From the NCBI GenBank assembly GCA_903826405.1, contig CAIKEH010000010.1, positions 1 through 64,000 of the forward strand: a stretch of DNA of 64,000 nt, read 5' to 3'. Below are positions 50,099 to 63,374 of the stretch, piece after piece. The notes below the pieces were generated by a model. That model ran no database searches, was not told the origin of the DNA, and saw only the letters and a program-made list of their open reading frames with translations. Source of the DNA: an uncultured bacterium. Lineage in GTDB: Bacteria > Bacteroidota > Bacteroidia > Chitinophagales > Chitinophagaceae. The first letter of the stretch is position 1. Every line of letters begins with the position of its first letter. A program made the position numbers and the translations under genes.

Positions 50099-53000
50099 TC
50101 ATTTGAGTACCGATCCGGTTCCGGGATAATTTTCCTCACCTCGAAAATAGGACCAGAGTATTTGATTAAGAAGATCATCAGGAGCAGCATCCACTTCTTC
50201 GAATATTTCGTTGGATAGGAGCGCCATTTTACGAGCTTTGCCTTCCAGTCTGCTTATCGGAACATTCAATTTGCCCAGTTTCACCTGGTTGGGTATCATA
50301 TCATAGCGGTTTGGTTTTGGAAGCTTCGAAAAACATTCATACATGGGTCTTGCTGTTCCATCCATGAGATTCATGGGAGGGAGGCCGAGGATCAATTCAA
50401 GGGACCTGAGCATGGAGACCTGACTATACCGTTCCTTGATGAGCCCCCCTTTGCTGAATGGACTGATCACCAGCCCAAGTGTTCTAAATGGTGATATATG
50501 GTCCCATCCACTTTGTGAATCATCTTGCGTGATGAAGATAATGGTGGAATCCCAATATCGGCTATGCGTGATCTTGTCGACTATTCTGCCCACGGCAAGG
50601 TCGTTGTCGGCGACCATGGATTCGGGTACAGGGAATACAGGTGAAGTACCAGCCGAGTGATCTGCTGGTAAGGATAGTACCAAGAGTTCGGGGAGGTTAC
50701 CCTCTTTTTCAAAGCTGTTCCAATCCCTGATGAAAATATCTGCCCTTTGCTGGTCGCTGAAAGATAGGTTGTCACAGTCGGGGTAATCGGGGGATATGAT
50801 GGGGCGGAGTCGGGCGATCGTGGTGACATTATGCCAATTGGGTATCTGGCCTGATTCCCGGAATGCATAAAGTTCCTTCCATCCTTTCCGGTCGTCGTAG
50901 ATCGTTTTACAAGCTTCGCCGTAAACCTTGACCCGCAGGCCATGATCCAGAGCATGGTTCCAGATGAAGCCACTCTTGTTGTAGACAAGGGCATCTTCCT
51001 GACGGTGGGGGTAACTCCTGAACCAAGCCCTTACGTTCTTTTCCACATAATCGGATACCATTCCTGCGTCCGTCCACTGATGTCCTTCGGCTGAAGATTT
51101 TCCTGAAGCGAAATAATGATCCATGATCCCGTATCTGGCGGCAAGCGCATGAAGATTAGGGGTCACATTCTTCCCAAAAACACAGAGTGAACTGTCTCCT
51201 TCGCCCTTTTCCAGATCTCCGTACACCTGATCATATGTTTTATTCTCTTTAATGATGTAGATGACGTGTTTGAAAACGGAGGGTTCGCCAGTCCTTTCGG
51301 GCAGAGGAACGGGCTTGGCATTTTTCCTTGGTGGAAGAGAACTTGCAATGATCCTTTCCGTCATATTATAGCGGAACACATCCTTGGAAACGGAATCAAG
51401 TTGCTTGCTGTCCGGGTAGGGAATGATGCTGATGGAGGCGATCTGCCGATGGATCTGTGAAGCATGCCTGACAGGATCGAACACTTCAGCTCCTCGGGAT
51501 TCCAGATTGGTGACCAGGACATCCTTGTCTGCCAATGCAATTCCTCCAGGATAAGCTTCCGTAGGATAGTGCCCCAGAATTTTTGAAGCACCCTTACCAT
51601 TCAAGGAGGCTTTTTCGCCAAGGGTGATGAAATCTAAGGCGTTATCAAGACCGTTCGCGACGATCAGCGTGGCTCCTTCATGGGCAAGTGCAAGTGCATT
51701 AGGCGTACTGCCTTGCAGTTTACTCCATTCATGAAAAGCTCCAGTAGGAATGATCTCTGCAACAATATTATTTCGGCTATCGATCACATATACCTCATCA
51801 CTCGAGCCACAAGCAACATATATATGATCACTGTTAGGTGATGCCACGATGGCATTGGGATGCAAGCCAGTTTTTATGGAGTCCAGATGCCGACCGGTAA
51901 CTGCATCGAGCACGAGCACATTGCCACCCGCCACAGCTCCTGTTATCGGATCTGTATACGTTTTGCCCCATGGAACACCGGCGAATTCCTGCGTAGTGTC
52001 CGTGACCTGTTCACCTGCCCAGTCCGTCACGTAAAGTTTACCTTTTTGGAGACAGATACCATAAGGGGCTACCCCCGTAGTGGTTTTCCAGATCAAATTG
52101 CGGTCTGCCCAGCTGTATTTTCTGACTTCATCATTTCCATTGATAACAGCGTAGAGGACTGGAGCTCCTTCTTCCTCAGAGGTGCATATCTGGTTTACGA
52201 TGGCATTCGTTGCGTCGTCGTTTTCCTTGACCGGTATGATGGATATGTTGCTGAATCCCGAATCCCATGCAGCGACCATGATACCGGACGTATGTCCATC
52301 CTGTGCTGCAGCACCCCATATGATCCATTCCCTACCCTTGTCGAACAGTGTAGTGATGCCGGAATAGGTGCTCATGAGATCTTTGAAACGTGGGTCTGAC
52401 CGGAATGACCAACTCTTCAGGATCTTCTTTCCTTTTATATCCAAAGCGGAAACGCCGTATCTGTCTTCCACGAAGGCGAGCTGCCCTGATCGGGAAATGC
52501 AGATGTCCAGTGCGTGGTTCTCGACTTTGGGATCACCATAGCGGATAACGGTACCACCCGATCGAAATGACCGGTCATAAGGCATGATCCCTGCTTCCGG
52601 ACTTCCTTTTCGAATATGGTCGGTAATCTCTTCGATCTTGTCTGAGTTGATCAGATCGATACCTAAAGAATCCTGCGTCTCCCAGGAGGGTGGTGTATCC
52701 GGAATTGCCCAAAATCGGATGGGTTTGTTTCGTGCGTGAGCCCTGCTGACCAAGGCAGATAGGGTATCCCGATCCGCCTTGCTGATCATTTCCATACCAT
52801 TCCACTTGCTGTAACTGGAAAAGTCGTCCCCGATCTGGCCGATCCTTTTCCATTGGTCAGGAGTGAATTTTTCAGTGGACCGACCTTCAAAAAGGATGAA
52901 GTCAGGATAGTTCCTGAATGCTGTAGGGGAGGGTCTGTTACCCGTAATGAGGATCTTCAGTTCAGGATCGGAGGTAAGCAAAGTATGATCTTTGAGCAGA

Positions 53001-53389
53001 AGTACAAGTGCATTCAATGTAGGAACCGCTTCGCTCTTGATATCAAATACAAGCTGCAACTTTTCTGTATTCCCCGGATATGGGTGGCCATGGAAAAGGT
53101 GGAGGTATTCCTCAAGCGGATTCAGGTAAAGGCTGGATAATGTACGTGCACTGTCCAGGTCTTTTTTGTTGCCCTGTCCTACCAGTATCTTCCCATTGAC
53201 GAGATAAATGTCCGCCTCCATAGAGCCTACCTGCTCCGTCCAAGCGGTTTGGAAGGGATATTGCTGCTCCTGATCATTATGAGCATGCACCCGATATGTG
53301 GTCAAAGGTTTTTTCTGTGAGTATAGTTGTGAAGGAAGGTTGAAAGCCAACCCAAATGACATGAATAAAAGGAGTTTTCTCATTCTCAT
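50099..53389 (-). CDS. exported fusion: glycerophosphodiesterase/PI-PLC-like domain, YVTN propeller, PF04185-type phosphoesterase
   Basis: 1096 residues. Signal peptide (KLLLFMSFGLAFNLPSQLYS). Residues about 30-265 are a TIM-barrel phosphodiesterase-like domain (YRVHAHNDQEQQYPFQTA, VGSMEADIYLVNGKILVG, LQLVFDIKSEAV). Residues about 285-690 form a seven-bladed-type YVTN propeller (YVACGSSDEVYVIDSRNNIV, GATLIVANGLDNALDFI). Residues about 700-1080 are a phosphoesterase of the phospholipase-C/acid-phosphatase AcpA type: VIYIIKENKTYDQVYGD metal loop, SAEGHQWTDAG, ITQDDSQSGWDHISPFR (partly quoted). Such propeller-phosphoesterase fusions are known in Bacteroidota; the extra N-terminal diesterase makes a two-enzyme protein that may strip phosphate from phospholipid head groups. 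No T9SS tail is seen. Confidence 0.8.
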   Translation of the reverse strand: MRMRKLLLFMSFGLAFNLPSQLYSQKKPLTTYRVHAHNDQEQQYPFQTAWTEQVGSMEADIYLVNGKILVGQGNKKDLDSARTLSSLYLNPLEEYLHLFHGHPYPGNTEKLQLVFDIKSEAVPTLNALVLLLKDHTLLTSDPELKILITGNRPSPTAFRNYPDFILFEGRSTEKFTPDQWKRIGQIGDDFSSYSKWNGMEMISKADRDTLSALVSRAHARNKPIRFWAIPDTPPSWETQDSLGIDLINSDKIEEITDHIRKGSPEAGIMPYDRSFRSGGTVIRYGDPKVENHALDICISRSGQLAFVEDRYGVSALDIKGKKILKSWSFRSDPRFKDLMSTYSGITTLFDKGREWIIWGAAAQDGHTSGIMVAAWDSGFSNISIIPVKENDDATNAIVNQICTSEEEGAPVLYAVINGNDEVRKYSWADRNLIWKTTTGVAPYGICLQKGKLYVTDWAGEQVTDTTQEFAGVPWGKTYTDPITGAVAGGNVLVLDAVTGRHLDSIKTGLHPNAIVASPNSDHIYVACGSSDEVYVIDSRNNIVAEIIPTGAFHEWSKLQGSTPNALALAHEGATLIVANGLDNALDFITLGEKASLNGKGASKILGHYPTEAYPGGIALADKDVLVTNLESRGAEVFDPVRHASQIHRQIASISIIPYPDSKQLDSVSKDVFRYNMTERIIASSLPPRKNAKPVPLPERTGEPSVFKHVIYIIKENKTYDQVYGDLEKGEGDSSLCVFGKNVTPNLHALAARYGIMDHYFASGKSSAEGHQWTDAGMVSDYVEKNVRAWFRSYPHRQEDALVYNKSGFIWNHALDHGLRVKVYGEACKTIYDDRKGWKELYAFRESGQIPNWHNVTTIARLRPIISPDYPDCDNLSFSDQQRADIFIRDWNSFEKEGNLPELLVLSLPADHSAGTSPVFPVPESMVADNDLAVGRIVDKITHSRYWDSTIIFITQDDSQSGWDHISPFRTLGLVISPFSKGGLIKERYSQVSMLRSLELILGLPPMNLMDGTARPMYECFSKLPKPNRYDMIPNQVKLGKLNVPISRLEGKARKMALLSNEIFEEVDAAPDDLLNQILWSYFRGEENYPGTGSVLK

Positions 53390-53747: not shown

Positions 53748-54902
53748 TTATCTGATCAGCATGACTGTTCCTTTCCTATAAAAGTCGCCACAGGCGCTTT
53801 TGACGGTAAGCTGGTAGGTGTAAATATCTGGTTTAAGTGGTTCGCCTTTAAAAGTTCCATCCCAGGATTGGTTTGGGTCGGAAGTGCCAAAAATCATTCT
53901 GCCCCATCTGTCATATACTCGAAGCAACACATTTTGAGGAGCTATCCACTTGTTGATGCCGAAGAAATCGTTCTTGCCATCGCCATTGGGAGTAAATGCA
54001 TTGGGCAGGTATAAGCGTGATTCAGGATGATCAACAAAATTGACTTTGACAGGCTTTGTTACCGTGCAGTTATTGACATTTTTAGCGCTAATATAAAATG
54101 TACCTGGTTTTGAGATAGATTCAGGATTATTTAACGGCACTGTTGCTTCAGGATCTTTCCAATACGTAAAGTCAAGGTTGTTATCACTACCTCTGGTGAT
54201 ATCAGAATTGGTTAGATCAACGGGAACTTTTGGGCAGGATGGTAATGGTTCATTTATCTTCAATATTGGCGGATTGGAAGATATCTCTCTGCTGCACATG
54301 GGCATTGAGTAACTGCAATAGTCAAGCATATAACCTATCGGACAGGAATAACTGAGATTTGGATCGCCGGCCTGAACTGGTTTGTTGAATTGGTCTTTTG
54401 AACTGAAAATCAGATTCAGATCTGAATACGAGTGGGCATTCATGATCTCCTGATCAGTATTGTCATATATCTCAAGACCAATTGTGGCGGGAGGTGCAGT
54501 CCCATTTGTACCTAGTACTTCTATAAGATGGGAGCCTTTTTTCAAATTCACCTTGAAGATCTTCCAATAGACAAAGTTCTCTCCACCTTCTGTATAGGGC
54601 TGATTGATCAGTGTATCTCCGTCAACAATAAGCATTGCGTAATTGTCCGCACCGAATCCTACCTGATATACTTTGTCTGCAGTAATAGATTTGCAAAAGC
54701 TGAATCCGATTTTTTGGAAGGGTTCGGCCACGCCTGATGCCCATCCCCCACACCTATTAAGCGGACCGTCATTTCCCTTTGAATTGATCCAGAAAATATT
54801 TGTGGGATCTATCAGTGTACTTGCGCCATTGCCTGTGATATCGAAACTAGAGTAGATTAATGTTCCTTGGATCGAATAAGGATTTGCCTGAATAGGAATC
54901 AT
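53748..54902 (-). CDS. T9SS type-B sorting-domain protein, N-terminus apparently missing
   Basis: 384 residues. The N-terminal half is a beta-sandwich-like domain (AMLIVDGDTLINQPYTEGG, GSHLIEVLGTNGTAPPATIG) resembling PA14/lectin-type modules; an Ig-like unit follows (about 215-290), then the gliding-motility-associated C-terminal domain: YLPNAFTPNGDGKNDFFG, VYDRWGRMIFG, WDGTFKGEPLKPDIYTYQL, FYRKGTVMLIR. Such proteins need a Sec signal peptide before T9SS export, but ATG 54902 gives none. The frame continues upstream in a protein-like way (GNPFLQAPPILGSKN) to a TGA about 75 bp away without any start. Likely 5'-truncated or frameshifted. Confidence 0.7.
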   Translation of the reverse strand: MIPIQANPYSIQGTLIYSSFDITGNGASTLIDPTNIFWINSKGNDGPLNRCGGWASGVAEPFQKIGFSFCKSITADKVYQVGFGADNYAMLIVDGDTLINQPYTEGGENFVYWKIFKVNLKKGSHLIEVLGTNGTAPPATIGLEIYDNTDQEIMNAHSYSDLNLIFSSKDQFNKPVQAGDPNLSYSCPIGYMLDYCSYSMPMCSREISSNPPILKINEPLPSCPKVPVDLTNSDITRGSDNNLDFTYWKDPEATVPLNNPESISKPGTFYISAKNVNNCTVTKPVKVNFVDHPESRLYLPNAFTPNGDGKNDFFGINKWIAPQNVLLRVYDRWGRMIFGTSDPNQSWDGTFKGEPLKPDIYTYQLTVKSACGDFYRKGTVMLIR

Positions 54903-55226: not shown

Positions 55227-56540
55227 TCATTTTCCTGCAGGGTCACCACTATAAATCCTTTTCAGAGATGGACTTTTCTTCAGCAGGTCGAGCCCTATAG
55301 GAGACACTTTGGTTTCATTCAGATTCACCACTTCCAAATTGTTCAGATCCTTCAGCCTGTTGCACAACTCATCTGAAACCGGATTGCCTTCTAAACGGAG
55401 TCTCTCCAGATTGCCAAGATCACTTAAGAATGCCAGATCTTTTTCAGTGAGCTTGTCTCCTGCGAGATTGAGCCAGATGATGTTTCCAGATAATTTTTTC
55501 AAGTCTGCCAGTGCATCTTTGATATCTGATGCGTTGCTCGCCATTTTGGTCAGATCCAACATGGCAGGTTGATGCATCATGATCCTGACCTTCCAGTCTT
55601 TTTTCCTGAGATTTTCAACGGCACTGCTGTCAAATATCTGAGGGATATTCGGGTTGATTTTTTGAGCAGTGAAGACTTCTTCTTTATTCTCTTGTGGCGG
55701 TGCCATTCCCAGAACTATGGCCACTTTGTTCCGTATGGTATCATTTCCTTTGATGTCCGTGAGTTTCGTGTTCTCCAATCCATCGGCATGGTCGATCCAC
55801 CACTTTATGATATCGATCTCATGACTTTTCAACGGAGGCTTCCCATTGGCAGGCATGAATTTTTCGTCGCTGACGCTAAGTGTTATCCTTTTGTACAACT
55901 CACTTTCCAGAGAGTGTCCAGAAACTAGAGCGGGTCCTGATTTGCCTCCTGTCAACAGATCATTTATGGATTCCATGGAAAGCCCGCCTTTATTCTTCCC
56001 ACCTCCATGGCATTGCCCGCAGCGCGCTTCAAAAATGGGTTGTACGACATCCTCATACAGATACACTTGATCCATGCTGGCCGGCTTGATCCTTTTGTTT
56101 TTGGTGAGTATTTTCAGGTTGATATATTCCCGACCATGTGTCAACATGCCACCATGATGACCGGTATAGACCATCAATAAGACCAGTCCGGTGAAACTGA
56201 TCGTGAAGATCCTGTCCGGAATGGTGATCCATCTTCCTGAGGAGAGCAAATAGAATACGAATGAAACTAAGGCAAGTGTGATTCCCATCCATTTATGATT
56301 ACGAAGCAAGGTCCTGTCATATTCACCCGTCAGTGATAGGAGGTATCCAAATACGCAGGCCAGAATGGCAGCGATGGTGCCGGCAAGCAGTACGAGTGAT
56401 ACGGCCTGGTTCAGGTGTTGAAATTTTTCTGTATGGGACAGGATGCGGAACAGGAATGCCAAGATCAAGAAGCCCAGCGGAAGATGGACGATCATGGGAT
56501 GAAGCCGACCAAGAAAAGTAAGTATGTCGGAAAGGATCAT
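55227..56540 (-). CDS. DUF2231 membrane protein with cytochrome c motif and leucine-rich tail
   Basis: 437 residues from ATG 56540, which overlaps the preceding stop (ATGA). Four transmembrane helices (about 16-33, 46-70, 86-100, 111-127) form a DUF2231-like unit with LHPMIVHLPLGFL, whose His residues may bind heme. The periplasmic part has one c-type heme site C174-x2-C177-H178 (CGQCHG) in the form typical of planctomycete cytochrome C domains (SMESINDLLTGGKSGPALVSG nearby, quoted as LLTGGKSGPALV). The C-terminus has leucine-rich repeats (LGNLERLRLEGNPVSDEL, LNNLEVVNLNETKVSPIGL). Last gene of the four-gene operon. Confidence 0.82.
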   Translation of the reverse strand: MILSDILTFLGRLHPMIVHLPLGFLILAFLFRILSHTEKFQHLNQAVSLVLLAGTIAAILACVFGYLLSLTGEYDRTLLRNHKWMGITLALVSFVFYLLSSGRWITIPDRIFTISFTGLVLLMVYTGHHGGMLTHGREYINLKILTKNKRIKPASMDQVYLYEDVVQPIFEARCGQCHGGGKNKGGLSMESINDLLTGGKSGPALVSGHSLESELYKRITLSVSDEKFMPANGKPPLKSHEIDIIKWWIDHADGLENTKLTDIKGNDTIRNKVAIVLGMAPPQENKEEVFTAQKINPNIPQIFDSSAVENLRKKDWKVRIMMHQPAMLDLTKMASNASDIKDALADLKKLSGNIIWLNLAGDKLTEKDLAFLSDLGNLERLRLEGNPVSDELCNRLKDLNNLEVVNLNETKVSPIGLDLLKKSPSLKRIYSGDPAGK

Positions 56541-57646
56541 GATGCCCTGGTGAGTTTTATGGGTGCCGTATGATTTGCATTCCACTGACAGACATAAAGG
56601 TTCTGTTCATCATCCACACATACATCATGGCCATGATTGAAAACGGGATTGGGTTGTTGAAAACTCTGTTGCAAGACCCCGTTCTTGTAGGTTGGCGTAG
56701 TTCCTCCGGGATTTGAAATCACCATATTGTTCTTGTCCAAAATGGTCACGAATCCGGAATTGTCAAAACGTTCTCCTTTATTATCTTTTGACCAGCAGAC
56801 TCCGGCGTAAATATGATCACCGTCCATGACTGCCCTGCATACGTACATGCCGGGCATATCGATTCTTTTCCTGAATTTTCCGTCCATCGAGAATATCTTG
56901 AAGCAGTTCTCCTCACGCGAACTACAGATGAGCACCGGGTCATTTTTGTCCCTGAGGTCCACGGTGATCCCATGCGCGTTGTATAAATTGTGTTCTTTTT
57001 CCGCATTATCCCGTCCTCCGAAATGCCGTATGTATTGCCCTTTACTATTGTACTGGATGATATGGTCTGATCCATAGCCATCCGCTACATAAATATCTCC
57101 GTTGGGGGCTATGGCTGTTTCAGTAGGCTGGAAGTACATGTCTTCCTTGTATATGCCGATGGTTTTAGGGTGGCCAATGGCGAATATCAGTTTTCCGCTG
57201 GTCGACATTTTCAATACCTGTCCTGATTGCCGATCCCATTTTCCTGTCCTGTCCTGGAACCATCCGCAATCGGTGATCATCAGAAAATCTTCACCACCTT
57301 CTTTTGCGAGGCTCAGACCATGACCTCCGGGGAATGCCGTTCCCCAATGTTCCAATAATTTACCTGACTTGTCGAAGATTAAAATGTTGTTGCTCGTATG
57401 GTCGCCCAGCATGATCAACCTGCCTTTACTGTCCTGAACCATCTCATGGCAATTGAACAAAGGATTCGTATTGACGCTGATCTTTGCCCAAGACCTGTCC
57501 ATCTTGTATCTGAATTTACCATGACCGATAAGGTCATCATCAGGCTTTCTGGTTTTGTCGACAATCGCAAATCCCAGAGTTGGACTGGAGATAGCCGCGG
57601 TTGAGATCAATGTAGTTCTGCTGATGAATTCTCTTCTTGATGACAT
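56537..57646 (-). CDS. Tat-exported NHL/six-bladed beta-propeller protein
   Basis: 369 residues. Twin-arginine signal SRREFISRTT at the N-terminus, then NHL-like blades: CHEMVQDSKGRLIMLGDHTS, TETAIAPNGDIYVADGYGSD, NAHGITVDLRDKNDPVLICS and FNHGHDVCVDDEQNLYVCQW. The layout resembles the propeller of peptidylglycine alpha-amidating lyase. Tat export suggests folding with a cofactor or in complex before transport. It lies 12 bp after the DUF1501 gene and overlaps the DUF2231 cytochrome gene by 4 bp. Enzymatic activity cannot be asserted. Confidence 0.8.
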   Translation of the reverse strand: MSSRREFISRTTLISTAAISSPTLGFAIVDKTRKPDDDLIGHGKFRYKMDRSWAKISVNTNPLFNCHEMVQDSKGRLIMLGDHTSNNILIFDKSGKLLEHWGTAFPGGHGLSLAKEGGEDFLMITDCGWFQDRTGKWDRQSGQVLKMSTSGKLIFAIGHPKTIGIYKEDMYFQPTETAIAPNGDIYVADGYGSDHIIQYNSKGQYIRHFGGRDNAEKEHNLYNAHGITVDLRDKNDPVLICSSREENCFKIFSMDGKFRKRIDMPGMYVCRAVMDGDHIYAGVCWSKDNKGERFDNSGFVTILDKNNMVISNPGGTTPTYKNGVLQQSFQQPNPVFNHGHDVCVDDEQNLYVCQWNANHTAPIKLTRAS

Positions 57647-57658
57647 ATCGTTAGTTGT

Positions 57659-59170
57659 TTATGAGAGGATGTTTTTAACGACCTTGCCTTCCACGTCGGT
57701 CAGGCGGAAACGACGACCTTGAAATTTATATGTCAATCTTTCGTGATCGATGCCCATCAGATGCAGGAGCGTAGCCTGGAAGTCATGAACATGAACCGGG
57801 TCCTTGATGATGTTATAGCTGAAGTCGTCGGTTTCTCCATAGCTGAAACCTGCCTTCACTCCTGCTCCGGCCATCCACATGGTAAAGCATCTGGGATGGT
57901 GATCTCGACCATAATCCGTTGCAGTGAGTTTACCTTGCGAGTATACGGTTCTGCCAAATTCTCCTCCCCAGACCACGAGGGTATCCTCCAGTAGCCCTCT
58001 CCTTTTCAGGTCGGTGATGAATGCTGCTGTTGCCTGATCCGTATCTTTACATTGTTTCTTTATCGCTGATGGCAATCCGCCGTGCATGTCCCAACCCTGA
58101 TGGTACAACTGTACGAATTTCACATCTTTTTCGAGTAGTTTTCTGGCCAAGATGCAATTCGCTGCGAAGGTCCCGGGTTCTTTGCTGTCTTTTCCATAGA
58201 GTTCGAAGATTTGCCTGGGTTCTTTGGACAGGTCCATGACTTCCGGCACCGAACTCTGCATCCGATATGCCATTTCGTATTGAGATATTCTGGCAGACAT
58301 TTCCGGATCCGAATACGCGCTATTCTGTTGTTCGTTGAGTTTGTACAGATATTCCAGCATTTCTTTCCTGTCCTCTCCATCATAACCATCAGGGTTGTTG
58401 AGGTAAAGCACAGGATCTTTGCCTGAACGGAATTGAACGCCCTGGTATTTTGTAGGCAGAAATCCATTGCCCCACAGACGTGCGTATAAGGGTTGGTCCT
58501 GAGGTGCATTTTTAGATACCAGCACGATGAATGTGGGCAGATTGTCATTGTCCGATCCCAATCCATAGCTGATCCAGGAACCTATGGATGGTCTACCTGG
58601 TAATTGATTCCCTGTCTGAAAAAAAGTGATCGCTGGATCATGGTTGATGGCTTCCGTATAAATCGACTTGACGATACAGAGATCATCCACGACGGAAGCG
58701 GTATGTGGGAGGAGTTCACTCACCCAGGTTTTATTTCCTCCATGTTGGTTGAATTTGAATATGGACGGTGCTACAGGTAAAATTCCCTGATTGGCACTCA
58801 TGCCCGTCAGCCGTTGACCATTCCTGACGGAATCGGGAAGGCCTTGGCCCATCATGTTGGTCAGGGAAGGTTTGTAATCAAAGGTCTCGATCTGGGAAGG
58901 CCCGCCACTCATGAACAAGTAAACGACACGTTTCGCCTTTGGAGCCAAATGGGGTATGGCTTTCAGAATATCCGATTCGAGGTCCCCGCTTGAAGGCGTG
59001 ATGATTTTACTCGAGTTCTGAACGCAACTATTACCTAATAATGACCCCAAGGCCATGGTACCCAAGCCGAAGGATGTTTTTGTAAGGAACCTGCGCCTGT
59101 CCATTTTGTCATGGATGCTGTCGAAGTCAGGTAGATTCAATCTGAATGGTATATCGTGATGTTCAGACAT
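57659..59170 (-). CDS. DUF1501 family protein with Tat signal
   Basis: 503 residues. Twin-arginine motif at residues 25-31 (RRRFLTK), followed by SFGLGTMALGSLLGNSC. The body is an alkaline-phosphatase-like DUF1501 domain: YLFMSGGPSQIETFDYKP, HDPAITFFQTGNQ, RPSIGSWISYGLGSDNDNLP (in part), VVWGGEFGRTVYSQG and GRDHHPRCFTMWMAGAGVKAG (in part). DUF1501 genes almost always pair with the DUF1549/DUF1553 gene, found here 3 bp upstream. The pair is common in Planctomycetes and present in some Bacteroidota; its reaction is unknown. Confidence 0.9.
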   Translation of the reverse strand: MSEHHDIPFRLNLPDFDSIHDKMDRRRFLTKTSFGLGTMALGSLLGNSCVQNSSKIITPSSGDLESDILKAIPHLAPKAKRVVYLFMSGGPSQIETFDYKPSLTNMMGQGLPDSVRNGQRLTGMSANQGILPVAPSIFKFNQHGGNKTWVSELLPHTASVVDDLCIVKSIYTEAINHDPAITFFQTGNQLPGRPSIGSWISYGLGSDNDNLPTFIVLVSKNAPQDQPLYARLWGNGFLPTKYQGVQFRSGKDPVLYLNNPDGYDGEDRKEMLEYLYKLNEQQNSAYSDPEMSARISQYEMAYRMQSSVPEVMDLSKEPRQIFELYGKDSKEPGTFAANCILARKLLEKDVKFVQLYHQGWDMHGGLPSAIKKQCKDTDQATAAFITDLKRRGLLEDTLVVWGGEFGRTVYSQGKLTATDYGRDHHPRCFTMWMAGAGVKAGFSYGETDDFSYNIIKDPVHVHDFQATLLHLMGIDHERLTYKFQGRRFRLTDVEGKVVKNILS

Positions 59171-59173
59171 GTT

Positions 59174-62100
59174 TCATCTTTTGGTTAAAAAGGCATCTGA
59201 ATTCATGATCGTGCTGGCCACCACAGCATTGGCGGCAACCTCTAATGAATCGATTCCGGATCTTATCGGGTATTGACCAGTGTGCAGCCACCCCCTCGCT
59301 TTAGCAGGTGTTTTCCTGAATTTTTGTTCTTCGATCCTGCGTAGTTCGAGGAGTATGTCCATGGCACCTTTGTCGGGTTGCAGACCGGTCAATTCCCGGT
59401 ACACTGTTCGGATCGCTGATGTGATGTCTTTTTCGACGCTCATTTTCTCGCCAAGGCTTCTGGCTGCTTCAACAAAAGTGGTGTCGTTCAAGATCACCAG
59501 CGATTGTAGTGGAGTGTTGGTGGATTGCCTCCTCATCACGCAGTAGCTTCTGGAGCCGGCATCGAAGGTGGACAGGGTAGGATTGGGAACTGATCTTTTG
59601 ATCATGACATACAAACTGCGTCGATAAACTGCATCACCTGTGTCCCTTTTATAAGTGGAACTGTTGATCTCCCAAAGGCCCGCTGGTTGGAAAGGCTTGA
59701 TGCTTTTACCTCCGACTTTTTCATTGAGGAGTCCTGATGCTTTCAAGGCATAGTCCCTGATCATTTCAGCGGACATCCTTCCTGAGGGTCCGCGGGCGAG
59801 AAGTCGGTTTTCGGGGTCTCTTTCCATCAATCTCTTGTCTGCATCGGATGCCTGCTGATAAGTGGCGGACATGACCATCAGCTTCACCAGTTTTTTCATA
59901 TCCCATCCTGAATCCCTGAAATCACAGGCCAGCCAATCCAACAGTTCGGGATGGTAAGGCAATTCACCCCGATTGCCGAAGTCCTCGGAAGTTTTAACTA
60001 TACCCGTTCCAAAAAATGTTTGCCATATGCGATTCGCGGCCACCCTTGCAGTCAACGGATTTCTGCGATCAACCAGCCATCTGGCCAGGCCATATCTGTT
60101 CTTCGGAAGACTATCCGGAAAAGAAAGAATGGATGCAGGTGTGTTGGGAAATACTTCATCGCCGGGCATATAGTAATTCCCCCTTTTCAGGATATATGCT
60201 TTCTTACGCTCTGGCATTTCCTGCATGACCATAAGCTCATCGATATTATTGATGGAGTCCGTCCTTGTCTTTCTCCATTTTCGCAATTCTTCAAAGGCAT
60301 TTTTAACGGGAATGCTTTGAGCTGACAGGTAATAATCCAGTAAGTCCTTTTGCCCTTCCCCGTCGATAGATGTGCTCTCCTTTCGAATGATGTCTTTCCA
60401 ATTTTTCTTGCCGGCCAGTATGCCGATCTCGAAAGAAGTCAGTTCACGGTCGTAGACAACGAGTTCGTCTACGGCACCTCCTTTGAAGCCATTGCCCCGC
60501 CACCAAGCGCCTATCTGGAGAGGAGGTTGGCTTTTGGAGTTGATGAAGTATCTGGGTTCGAGAAGGATGTCTTTGCGGAGCTGATCCATCACGGTCTTCA
60601 TTCTGACCTGATTCCCATCCTGATAAAGTCGAAGTCCATTTGCCTTGGAGGAGCCGTCATAAGTTAGGGTCAGTTGTATCCAGTGATCCCGGGGGATGGG
60701 GTCCATACTCAGCAGGGTGATCGCGTCCGATGGGGCGGTATGTGCCATGTTCAATTCCAACTGGCCGTCCTTGATGTACAAGTGATACCCTCTGTAGTTG
60801 TATAATCTGTCGGAAAGGCATTTATGGAAGATGACCCCTTCTTTCAATTCCTTGGGTATGTATACCATGATCCCGATGGAAAAAGGATCGGACTTTCCAA
60901 AAACACCAACACTGTCCAGATGCAGCCAGGAGTCTCCATTAAAGGTAAGTCCTTCGCCTTTTGGACTTTTGACGAATACGGGAGCTTCGCCCGGATTATT
61001 CGTTTCTCTTTTCATGCTGGCTTTCCGCCCACCTTTACATGTATTGGACAGGGAATGATCTTCAAAGGTGAAATGGGCTTTCAATCCGGCCTCGGGAATT
61101 TCTTCCTGTAAAAGCGACCTGTATTTCCCGTTTTTCAGCCAGCCCGCAAAATCGTTGTTGATGTTCTTTTTCGTTGCGATGAGTTTTTTCTCTTTCTCTT
61201 CAATGGTGGAATCCAGAAATTTCAGGATCTTTTCTTTTTCCGGAGTGGGCAACAAAAGTGTAGGCGTAGGCGTGGCATCACTGAAGGCTATCTGTCCAGC
61301 CTCCTTAACATTGTTGAAAAAACTGAAGAGTTCGTAATAGTTCTTCTGGGTGAGTGGATCGTATTTATGGTCATGACATTTTGCACATCCCACAGTAAGA
61401 CCAAGAAATGCGGTACCGAAAGTGTTTGTCCTGTCAATAACATATTCGGTCTGGAACTCTTCTTCCACGATCCCACCTTCGGTATTCTGTTGATGATTCC
61501 TGTTGAATGCCGTAGCGATGATCATGTCCTTGGTCGGATTCGGAATCAGGTCTCCAGCGAGTTGCTGTGCGACGAACCTGTCATAAGGCATGTTGGAGTT
61601 AAAGGCATTGATCACCCAGTCGCGATAAGGTGACATATCCCTAATCCTGTCCACCGTGTAGCCATGGGAGTCGGCGAATCTAGCTATGTCTAACCATTCG
61701 GTGGCCATTTTTTCACCAAAATGTGGGGATGACATGAGTCGGTCAACCTGTTTCTCATAGGCATTGGGCGAACGATCATTTAGGAAAATGTCCATTTCGG
61801 CCATGGTCGGGGGAAGTCCGGTCAGGTCTAGGGATACTCTTTTGAGGAGAATCTCCCTGGAAGCGCTTTGTGAGGGACGCAGGCCTTCGTTTTCCAGTCG
61901 ATGACCTATGAACGCATCGATAGGGTTGTTGATCTTCCAGGTTGGATCCTTGACTTTAGGGACATCGAGTTTGGATGGTGGAACGAAAGCCCAATGAGGT
62001 TTGTAAACAGCCCCATCATCGATCCACTTGATCAGCATGGCTTTCTCGTAAGAGGATAGTGAAAGATGTGAGGCAGGGGTAGGCATCTTCACTTCCGGGT

Positions 62101-62416
62101 CGTCGGCAAGTATCCTTCTGTAGAGTTCACTGCCTTCAGGATTACCCGGGTCTATTGCGACTTTGTCCGGCTGGTTGGCAAGCTCATCGAATGCGGATTC
62201 CTGAATATCCAGGCGGAGTCCAGCCTTCCTCTTGCCTTTATCAGGTCCGTGGCAAGAGAAGCATTTGTCTTGTAAAATAGGTTTGACATGGATGTTGTAA
62301 TCGATCTTGGCGGGTAAACTTCGATAGGCCAGACGGACATCATCCGGCATATTGGTTGTGCATCCGACCAGAATAGCCGGGATGAACCAAAAAAAGAGAT
62401 ATCTGGATGGGCGCAT
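59174..62416 (-). CDS. PSD1-type cytochrome c / DUF1549 / LamG / DUF1553 lipoprotein
   Basis: 1080 residues from ATG 62416. Lipoprotein signal FIPAILVGC (C19). A planctomycete-type cytochrome C domain follows with C52-x2-C55-H56 (CFSCHGPDKGKRKAGLRLD in part). DUF1549 (about 145-345) carries FIGHRLENEGLRPSQSA and a second CxxCH, CAKCHDHKYDP. A LamG-like lectin domain at about 425-650 (LKAHFTFEDHSL, LTFNGDSWLHLDSVGVFG, VDELVVYDREL) is inserted, then DUF1553 (YGLARWLVDRRNPLTARVAANR in part, RSLYVMIKRSVPNPTLSTFD in part). The in-frame Met at 62443 is less likely. First gene of a four-gene operon; it probably acts on a polymer at the outer membrane, using its lectin part for binding (inference). 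Confidence 0.87.
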   Translation of the reverse strand: MRPSRYLFFWFIPAILVGCTTNMPDDVRLAYRSLPAKIDYNIHVKPILQDKCFSCHGPDKGKRKAGLRLDIQESAFDELANQPDKVAIDPGNPEGSELYRRILADDPEVKMPTPASHLSLSSYEKAMLIKWIDDGAVYKPHWAFVPPSKLDVPKVKDPTWKINNPIDAFIGHRLENEGLRPSQSASREILLKRVSLDLTGLPPTMAEMDIFLNDRSPNAYEKQVDRLMSSPHFGEKMATEWLDIARFADSHGYTVDRIRDMSPYRDWVINAFNSNMPYDRFVAQQLAGDLIPNPTKDMIIATAFNRNHQQNTEGGIVEEEFQTEYVIDRTNTFGTAFLGLTVGCAKCHDHKYDPLTQKNYYELFSFFNNVKEAGQIAFSDATPTPTLLLPTPEKEKILKFLDSTIEEKEKKLIATKKNINNDFAGWLKNGKYRSLLQEEIPEAGLKAHFTFEDHSLSNTCKGGRKASMKRETNNPGEAPVFVKSPKGEGLTFNGDSWLHLDSVGVFGKSDPFSIGIMVYIPKELKEGVIFHKCLSDRLYNYRGYHLYIKDGQLELNMAHTAPSDAITLLSMDPIPRDHWIQLTLTYDGSSKANGLRLYQDGNQVRMKTVMDQLRKDILLEPRYFINSKSQPPLQIGAWWRGNGFKGGAVDELVVYDRELTSFEIGILAGKKNWKDIIRKESTSIDGEGQKDLLDYYLSAQSIPVKNAFEELRKWRKTRTDSINNIDELMVMQEMPERKKAYILKRGNYYMPGDEVFPNTPASILSFPDSLPKNRYGLARWLVDRRNPLTARVAANRIWQTFFGTGIVKTSEDFGNRGELPYHPELLDWLACDFRDSGWDMKKLVKLMVMSATYQQASDADKRLMERDPENRLLARGPSGRMSAEMIRDYALKASGLLNEKVGGKSIKPFQPAGLWEINSSTYKRDTGDAVYRRSLYVMIKRSVPNPTLSTFDAGSRSYCVMRRQSTNTPLQSLVILNDTTFVEAARSLGEKMSVEKDITSAIRTVYRELTGLQPDKGAMDILLELRRIEEQKFRKTPAKARGWLHTGQYPIRSGIDSLEVAANAVVASTIMNSDAFLTKR

Positions 62417-62642
62417 GTATTGATTTACATGTGGTTGGATCAAGGTGAACTGCAGGCGTAAAAATTAGTGAAAAAAAGGGAGTTTTCCCCTTTTCCGGAG
62501 TCTTGTAATGCCATAAATTTTTGTCTGGGTTGATCCAGAGGACGAATGAACACGGACTTGTCAGCATTGCCGATGCGGGGTGTTCCTTGGGATGTGCCAA
62601 GAAAGCAGAAGTTCAGTGAAACGCGTTTAAAAAAGAGTTCTT

Positions 62643-63374
62643 TTATTTCAACATGTATTCCATCCTGATGGTGATGGAAGCTGTTTTGTTCTTGTCGCTG
62701 GTATTATATGAGCCTCCGTAGCTATATTCTTCGTTCGAGTTTTTCCCGGTGATCTGGAATACACCCATGACCGATTTCTTCAGGTTTCCCAATTTGCTGT
62801 TCACACTTTCGGCTATGGTATTCGCCCGCAGCTTGGCATCTGCAGAAGCTTTGGCCAGCAGGTCCATTTTGAGGTCTGCCAAACGAGTATAATAATAGCT
62901 GGGTGGCTCCGAACTGAGTTCAATGCCCTTTTCTATCAGTTCTGTCACCTCACGTGAGAGTTTTTCTATTCTTTCAATATCTCTGGATTCGATCTTGACG
63001 GATTGGCTTAGGACATAACCGGAAAAATCGTTCGAGACGACCTCACCTCTTGAACCGTATCGTGTATCAAAGGTCTGCTGAATATTCACGGCACTGATGA
63101 TCACAGAGGAATCGGTTATACCTTTGGATCGGAGATAGGCCCTGATCGAATTTTCATCTTCTTTCAAAATAGCATAGGCTTCTTTGAGGTCTTTGGATTT
63201 CCTCAGGTATTTTCCTTCCCATACGATAAGGTCGCTGGTGAAATTCACCTGTGCCATTCCCACTACGGAGATGCCTTCTGCGGAACGGAAACGATATTTG
63301 TAGCCGTTAACAAGGATAAGCGAGGAAATGATGACTGATAAGGCCAGAATAATGGCTGTGGTGTTTCTGTTCAT
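62643..63374 (-). CDS. SIMPL-domain (DUF541) membrane-anchored protein
   Basis: 243 residues. One N-terminal membrane anchor (TTAIILALSVIISSLILVNG), then the SIMPL domain: GISVVGMAQVNFTSDLIVW, VIISAVNIQQTFDTRYGSRG (in part) and the central ASADAKLRANTIAESVNSKLG segment (in part KLRANTIAESVNSKLG). SIMPL proteins are periplasmic or outer-membrane-associated, with no settled biochemical role. 226 bp separate it from the next operon; no promoter seen. Confidence 0.87.
   Translation of the reverse strand: MNRNTTAIILALSVIISSLILVNGYKYRFRSAEGISVVGMAQVNFTSDLIVWEGKYLRKSKDLKEAYAILKEDENSIRAYLRSKGITDSSVIISAVNIQQTFDTRYGSRGEVVSNDFSGYVLSQSVKIESRDIERIEKLSREVTELIEKGIELSSEPPSYYYTRLADLKMDLLAKASADAKLRANTIAESVNSKLGNLKKSVMGVFQITGKNSNEEYSYGGSYNTSDKNKTASITIRMEYMLK

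Follow-up and report, generated by a model that had tools for sequence, protein, structure and literature searches.

Gene pairs encoding a PSD1/PSCyt protein and a DUF1501 protein are known from Planctomycetes and Verrucomicrobia, where a carbohydrate role has been suggested for them (PMC5615132, PMC2754498), and the DUF1549 and DUF1553 domains are abundant in planctomycetes, each occurring 41 times in R. baltica (PMC2754498). A pair with the same domains as these planctomycete and verrucomicrobial pairs opens a four-gene operon in an uncultured Chitinophagaceae bacterium, on the 64,000-nucleotide stretch of contig CAIKEH010000010.1 analyzed here (hereafter the window), and is followed there by the genes for an NHL propeller and a DUF2231 membrane cytochrome. 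The PSD1/DUF1501 pair itself is thus already known; apparently new are its fixed DUF2231 partner, natural fusions of that partner with PSD1, and the likeness of the propeller to peptidyl-alpha-hydroxyglycine alpha-amidating lyase (PAL). In the accessible text of the two papers above we met neither a cytochrome of the DUF2231 type nor fusions or propellers. Likewise, no DUF2231 partner, fusion or PAL-like propeller was met in the accessible parts of PMC11495043 and PMC10033563 or in literature under the family names, and mention elsewhere is possible. For the biology of DUF1549/DUF1553 proteins, the compact four-gene version provides a small system open to cloning and assay, with a defined candidate electron exit.

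The original prediction suggested that the four products form one envelope redox assembly, with the propeller and the membrane cytochrome as perhaps overlooked partners, and the co-occurrence check on these two genes bears out the partnership for the cytochrome and in part for the propeller. In an even draw of 247 Bacteroidota genomes with a completeness of 90% or more, among them the genome of the window, PSD1 (E <= 1e-60), DUF1501 (1e-100) and the DUF2231 cytochrome (1e-20) are each present in 29 genomes and the propeller (1e-40) in 30, the presence thresholds differing by protein. The first three occupy the identical 29 of the 247 genomes (Fisher 2e-38 per identical pair), with a DUF2231 match that is near full length in 28 of them and spans residues 4-258 only in genome G241. 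The propeller accompanies DUF1501 in 25 of its 30 genomes (Fisher 2.6e-25) and, at genus level, in 18 of 21 genera (Fisher 1.1e-15); in the other five genomes (L186, L190, L192, L194, L196) DUF1501 is absent and the propellers fall outside the 116-row clade of the window's propeller. Counting only the best candidates per genome, 48 of 61 DUF2231-cytochrome matches lie within 6.5 kb of DUF1501 and 50 of 89 DUF1501 matches within 6.5 kb of DUF2231, as do 15 of 37 propeller matches relative to DUF1501.

Such associations could also arise if the genes were merely co-resident in polysaccharide degraders and their products did not cooperate. As a lifestyle control we used a twin-arginine translocation (Tat) exported Gfo/Idh oxidoreductase that adjoins the cassette in one relative (L166) and is present in 30 of the 247 genomes. 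It overlaps DUF1501 in 19 of 29 genomes (Fisher 6e-14) and the propeller in 18 of 30 (Fisher 4e-12), so the association is partly one of lifestyle. The trio of PSD1, DUF1501 and DUF2231 is far tighter, with an overlap of 29 of 29, fusion at all eight loci examined for it and often tight operons, which makes linkage by lifestyle alone very improbable.

The fusions bear most directly on the membrane cytochrome. An 848-aa protein from the window's own genome (L083) joins DUF2231, PSCyt1, DUF1549 and DUF1553 in one chain according to Pfam, and together with seven proteins from other genomes identified by profile models it makes all eight examined long DUF2231 matches DUF2231-PSD1 fusions. Each has two CxxCH motifs and a DUF1501 gene directly after it, and some match only part of DUF1553. 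From these natural fusions we argue that the DUF2231 and PSD1 parts act at the same place; because of them and of the identical 29-genome distribution, the DUF2231 cytochrome is a fixed partner of the pair.

Pfam finds PSCyt1 (2e-11) and DUF2231 (1.4e-9) in this fourth protein. Across 71 DUF2231 proteins, His14, His19 and His82 of the membrane domain are invariant, and 70 of the 71 conserve His128 and His135, every CxxCH position and Met229, a possible axial heme ligand. Lying in a small helical membrane domain beside a periplasmic heme c, the conserved histidines hint at b hemes or at a site for quinone, a pattern that is compatible with heme b and no proof of it. The predicted leucine-rich tail is weak in the window's copy (LRR_8, E 0.01, below the Pfam cut-off) and clear in the paralogue L082 (LRR_6, 1.8e-6, above it). 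At three loci (L184, L185, L187) an additional small protein gene lies between the propeller and DUF2231 genes, and the small protein of L185 carries Fn3_assoc/CHB_HEX_C_1 domains like those that L081 and L082 have in their DUF2231 proteins.

The window's genome contains six DUF1501 matches, and profile models find PSD1-DUF1501-DUF2231 in the window and also at L080, L081 and L082, with an L081 DUF2231 copy that is not recognised by Pfam's DUF2231. The slot filled by the propeller in the window is occupied in L080 by a TIM barrel (AP_endonuc_2) that starts with a twin arginine, and is empty in L081 and L082. A member of another DUF1501 subfamily in the same genome (L084, G000:C42:218847-219299, E 5e-24) has neither PSD1 nor DUF2231 nearby by profile models. 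Within the genus, the propeller is found in 29 of 37 genomes, and 38 of its loci that were retrieved comprise 3 with the cassette, 25 with no partner nearby, 9 that are cut off and 1 without a model match. A DUF1501 at least 66% identical to the window's, a cut-off picked after the table was seen, is present in 20 of the 29 propeller genomes vs 1 of the 8 without propeller (Fisher 0.012). These copies are mostly not beside the propeller; among 17 such DUF1501 regions, DUF2231 lies alongside in 11 of the 12 with enough flank (L201 being the one without), and five are cut off. A less similar DUF1501 copy (L217) has DUF2231 alongside as well.

The distribution of the propeller is looser. Among 35 propeller loci of the even sample outside the window's genome, 14 have the cassette (11 on the same strand, 3 on the opposite), defined as PSD1 and DUF1501 both within 6.5 kb or, at a contig end, just one of the two. 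All three partners are present at 11 loci; DUF2231 is the only partner at 2, 1 locus is cut off and 18 lack any partner within 6.5 kb. A propeller profile scan of 84,980 species, one genome per species, gave 578 confirmed relatives, of which the best 80 were kept; more exist. In this set, which is selected by likeness to the propeller, the cassette is present at 58 loci, DUF2231 alone at 3 and DUF1501 lacking PSD1 at 2, while 3 loci are cut off and 14 show no partner. At 42 of the 80, the whole trio is encoded on the propeller's strand no more than three genes away from it, and PSD1 and DUF1501 occur without DUF2231 within 6.5 kb in 11. Among the named organisms are Chitinophaga, Mucilaginibacter, Aquimarina, Flammeovirga, Maribacter and Zobellia, with Rhodopirellula europaea (L163) as the one planctomycete. 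Because the same genes recur in the same order across Bacteroidota, a chance arrangement is excluded. The description of the four-gene set as "Planctomycete-style" finds no support, since the order is common in Bacteroidota and the lone planctomycete has three genes in a different order (propeller-PSD1-DUF1501, no DUF2231 nearby) with a propeller that nests in a Bacteroidota clade. An import of the set from Planctomycetes was considered and dropped, with a single planctomycete among the best 80 loci.

In a quick maximum-likelihood tree of 140 propellers (133 different, one planctomycete sampled), the window's propeller subfamily of 94 rows comprises 62 with the cassette, 27 with none, 3 with DUF2231 only and 2 partial. 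Stand-alone propellers form one clade of 20 rows, or 13 distinct loci with seven of them represented twice, from the window's genus and its near relatives. A single loss of linkage is the best reading of this clade, although rows without partners also occur elsewhere in the tree. Pairwise-distance correlations over 42-55 loci are 0.90 for PSD1-DUF1501, 0.85 for PSD1-DUF2231, 0.81 for propeller-DUF2231 and 0.73 for propeller-DUF1501, against 0.49-0.69 (18-25 loci) for controls with a neighbouring AraC regulator, and common descent explains part of them. The stand-alone clade and the partnerless loci speak against the propeller as an obligate subunit, a reading that was dropped; it is a frequent and separable partner of the trio. 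Many stand-alone propellers of genus relatives (L043-L057, L111-L120) have as neighbours a transporter-like gene and one for LamB/YcsF (5-oxoprolinase A), joined in some cases by 5-oxoprolinase B/C-like genes, with Pfam confirmation for the LamB/YcsF of L043 only.

What the propeller does is suggested by its structure and its invariant residues. It has an NHL match in Pfam (1.2e-5) and a twin-arginine start, with RR in at least 90% of 31 aligned rows, and its closest solved structure by two methods, at rank 1 both times, is PAL (PDB 3fvz), with TRIM NHL propellers nearly tied (within 1 Z). The residues H67, E68, H109, Y191, H225, R244, H338, H340 and D341 are invariant in 31 of 31 rows. A histidine and the tyrosine of a DGY motif align with PAL, the columns of H109 and Y191 falling on PAL chain positions 94 and 163, which one constant offset (491) converts to His585 and Tyr654. 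We take His585 to be the first zinc histidine and Tyr654 the catalytic tyrosine of PAL, which presumably also has second and third zinc histidines and Arg706; H225, H340 and R244 are invariant in the propeller, and for these no residue-by-residue alignment to PAL was seen, one comparison being weak. The propeller differs from PAL in its identity of only about 19% and in other invariant residues (C66, H67, E68, H338). Our favoured, tentative reading of the propeller is a PAL-like zinc lyase. A scaffold or ligand-binding NHL protein that has no enzymatic activity and merely travels with the trio is a rather unlikely alternative: the invariance of H67, E68, H109, Y191, H225, R244 and H340 goes beyond the needs of a scaffold, H109 and Y191 fall on PAL positions with presumed catalytic roles, and in one relative (L069) the propeller gene lies between two PhyH genes, both confirmed by Pfam.

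The PSD1 protein contains PSCyt1 (2.2e-13), DUF1549 (3.2e-86), Laminin_G_3 (1.1e-11) and DUF1553 (8.1e-96) in Pfam. A lipoprotein-type signal (by eye) is followed by PSCyt1 with the first heme c, DUF1549/PSCyt2 with the second, a LamG jelly roll and DUF1553/PSD1; both CxxCH motifs are invariant in an alignment of 25 rows. The window's pair therefore has DUF1549 and DUF1553 in one protein, heme c motifs in both PSCyt1 and DUF1549, and DUF1501 in the adjoining gene. In a structure search with the whole predicted model (pLDDT 78.8), the rows shown match the LamG jelly roll. The top four rows are all AbnA, whose domain 4, with a structure determined together with a fragment of arabinan, is the best match; the many clostridial-toxin rows below reflect one common lectin fold, nothing more. 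The DUF1501 protein (Pfam DUF1501, 5.3e-159) has a Tat-type signal, RRRFL, whose RR is invariant in 26 aligned rows. A weak Sulfatase match (E 0.0025, residues 375-474, below the Pfam cut-off) hints that it is perhaps a distant sulfatase/alkaline-phosphatase-type metal protein.

We tentatively read the operon as one quinone-linked periplasmic oxidoreductase working with a PAL-like zinc lyase on sugar-derived substrates, a proposal for which we see somewhat less than an even chance and whose reaction we infer. The LamG domain of PSD1 would bind carbohydrate, and in the periplasm PSD1 and DUF1501 would oxidise this carbohydrate or part of it, the task of DUF1501 being the least certain step. From the two c hemes of PSD1, electrons could then reach the one in the DUF2231 protein and move on, through hemes or a quinone site at its five membrane histidines, to the quinone pool. 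The propeller, acting as a zinc enzyme, would split an oxidised hemiacetal- or hemiaminal-like product, and in other copies of the cassette its slot would be taken by a sugar-isomerase-like TIM barrel or left empty.

The order of hemes would also suit electron flow in the opposite direction, in which the DUF2231 protein oxidises quinol, PSD1 passes the electrons to an external acceptor and the propeller is structural or binding. In 5 of the 80 loci (L100, L107, L123, L160, L164) the cassette is directly followed by a gene of one cluster, which would fit this direction; Pfam identifies the L107 member as a di-heme cytochrome c peroxidase (CCP_MauG). We nevertheless regard it as unlikely, as sugar-catabolism and sulfatase neighbourhoods in some relatives suggest an oxidisable substrate and the PAL-like residues of the propeller are invariant. 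Two of these loci carry tandem cassettes (L100:62-3935, L107:249-4117), in which DUF1501, an L080-like TIM barrel gene and DUF2231 directly precede PSD1-DUF1501-propeller-DUF2231.

A bolder reading makes the cassette a new heme-based, quinone-linked counterpart of PHM-PAL, the amidating enzyme that works in two steps, with the trio oxidising, in the periplasm, a carbon next to oxygen or nitrogen of a sugar-derived substrate, for example in a methyl ether or an N-substituent, and the propeller splitting the unstable product. We consider this improbable, a judgement that moved up marginally because both PhyH neighbours of the L069 propeller were confirmed. If true, it would add a further route to cut such bonds besides P450s and iron/2-oxoglutarate (Fe/2OG) enzymes, and L069 would be the Fe/2OG version.

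Hints at the substrate come from neighbourhoods of relatives. At L166, PSD1-DUF1501-propeller without a nearby DUF2231 is flanked on one side by the Gfo/Idh oxidoreductase and an AraC regulator and on the other by sulfatase, L-rhamnose mutarotase, MFS, short-chain dehydrogenase, amidohydrolase, mannitol dehydrogenase and altronate dehydratase families, a combination that we interpret as deoxyhexose-type catabolism. At L074, L075, L076 and L078 the propeller adjoins a gene from a single cluster, which lies one gene away at L070; the L078 member of this cluster resembles rhamnosidases. A P450-cluster gene occurs with ferredoxin and reductase genes in 6 of the 80 loci (L129, L136, L137, L146, L155, L161), these labels coming from Pfam on one member of each cluster. 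P450, ferredoxin and ferredoxin reductase genes also occur in the clusters described for 6-O-methyl-galactose demethylation in marine Flavobacteriia (PMC10033563), and some of the relatives' P450 loci share with those clusters alcohol dehydrogenase and esterase genes too; in contrast to them, the window region read has none of these genes, and P450 is present in only 6 of the 80 loci. The sugar-catabolism, P450 and rhamnosidase neighbours are thus seen in relatives and none in the window. The predicted action on an extracellular polymer or small molecule would be compatible with the sugar-catabolism neighbourhoods of some relatives.

The four genes lie on the minus strand from 62416 to 55227, and their coordinates and Pfam domains agree with the layout originally described, with gaps of 3 and 12 bp, an ATGA overlap of 4 bp, two heme proteins and two Tat substrates; the two heme proteins carry three CxxCH motifs in total (Table 1). 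NCBIfam gives no family above cut-off for any of the four proteins. Promoter and terminator scans of the window are at chance level (12 promoter-like sites vs 11.5 expected, 8 terminator-like vs 8.3), and a Bacteroidota-type promoter pattern has 3 matches in the window and none in 55-63 kb. These scans speak neither for nor against internal promoters, for which the tight junctions leave little space.

Table 1. Genes and sequence features of the four-gene operon in the window
Feature	Position	Strand	Remarks	Product
PSD1 protein gene	62416 (ATG) to 59174	-	TTG at 62443 also open	1080 aa
First heme c motif CFSCH	62249..62263	-	PSD1 residues 52-56	
Second heme c motif CAKCH	61373..61387	-	PSD1 residues 344-348, within DUF1549	
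DUF1501 gene	59170-57659	-	3 bp after PSD1 gene	503 aa
Propeller gene	57646-56537	-	12 bp after DUF1501 gene	369 aa
DUF2231 membrane protein gene	56540 (ATG) to 55227	-	upstream GTG at 56585 also open	437 aa
DUF2231 transmembrane domain	56142..56504	-	five conserved His: residues 14, 19, 82, 128, 135	
Heme c motif CGQCH	56007..56021	-	DUF2231 protein residues 174-178	

No SusC/SusD pair was met beside the operon, with Pfam applied to the three flanking genes below and the other open reading frames of 50-64 kb inspected by eye only, and the operon is therefore not classed as a polysaccharide utilization locus. By Pfam, the flanking genes encode SIMPL (62643-63374) on one side and CHU_C (53748-54902) and Phosphoesterase (50099-53389) on the other, and none looks like a member of the four-gene unit. 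The last of these, on the minus strand, encodes a 1096-aa protein in which the Phosphoesterase domain (1.3e-12) stands behind a propeller-like region whose NHL repeat scores at the cut-off.

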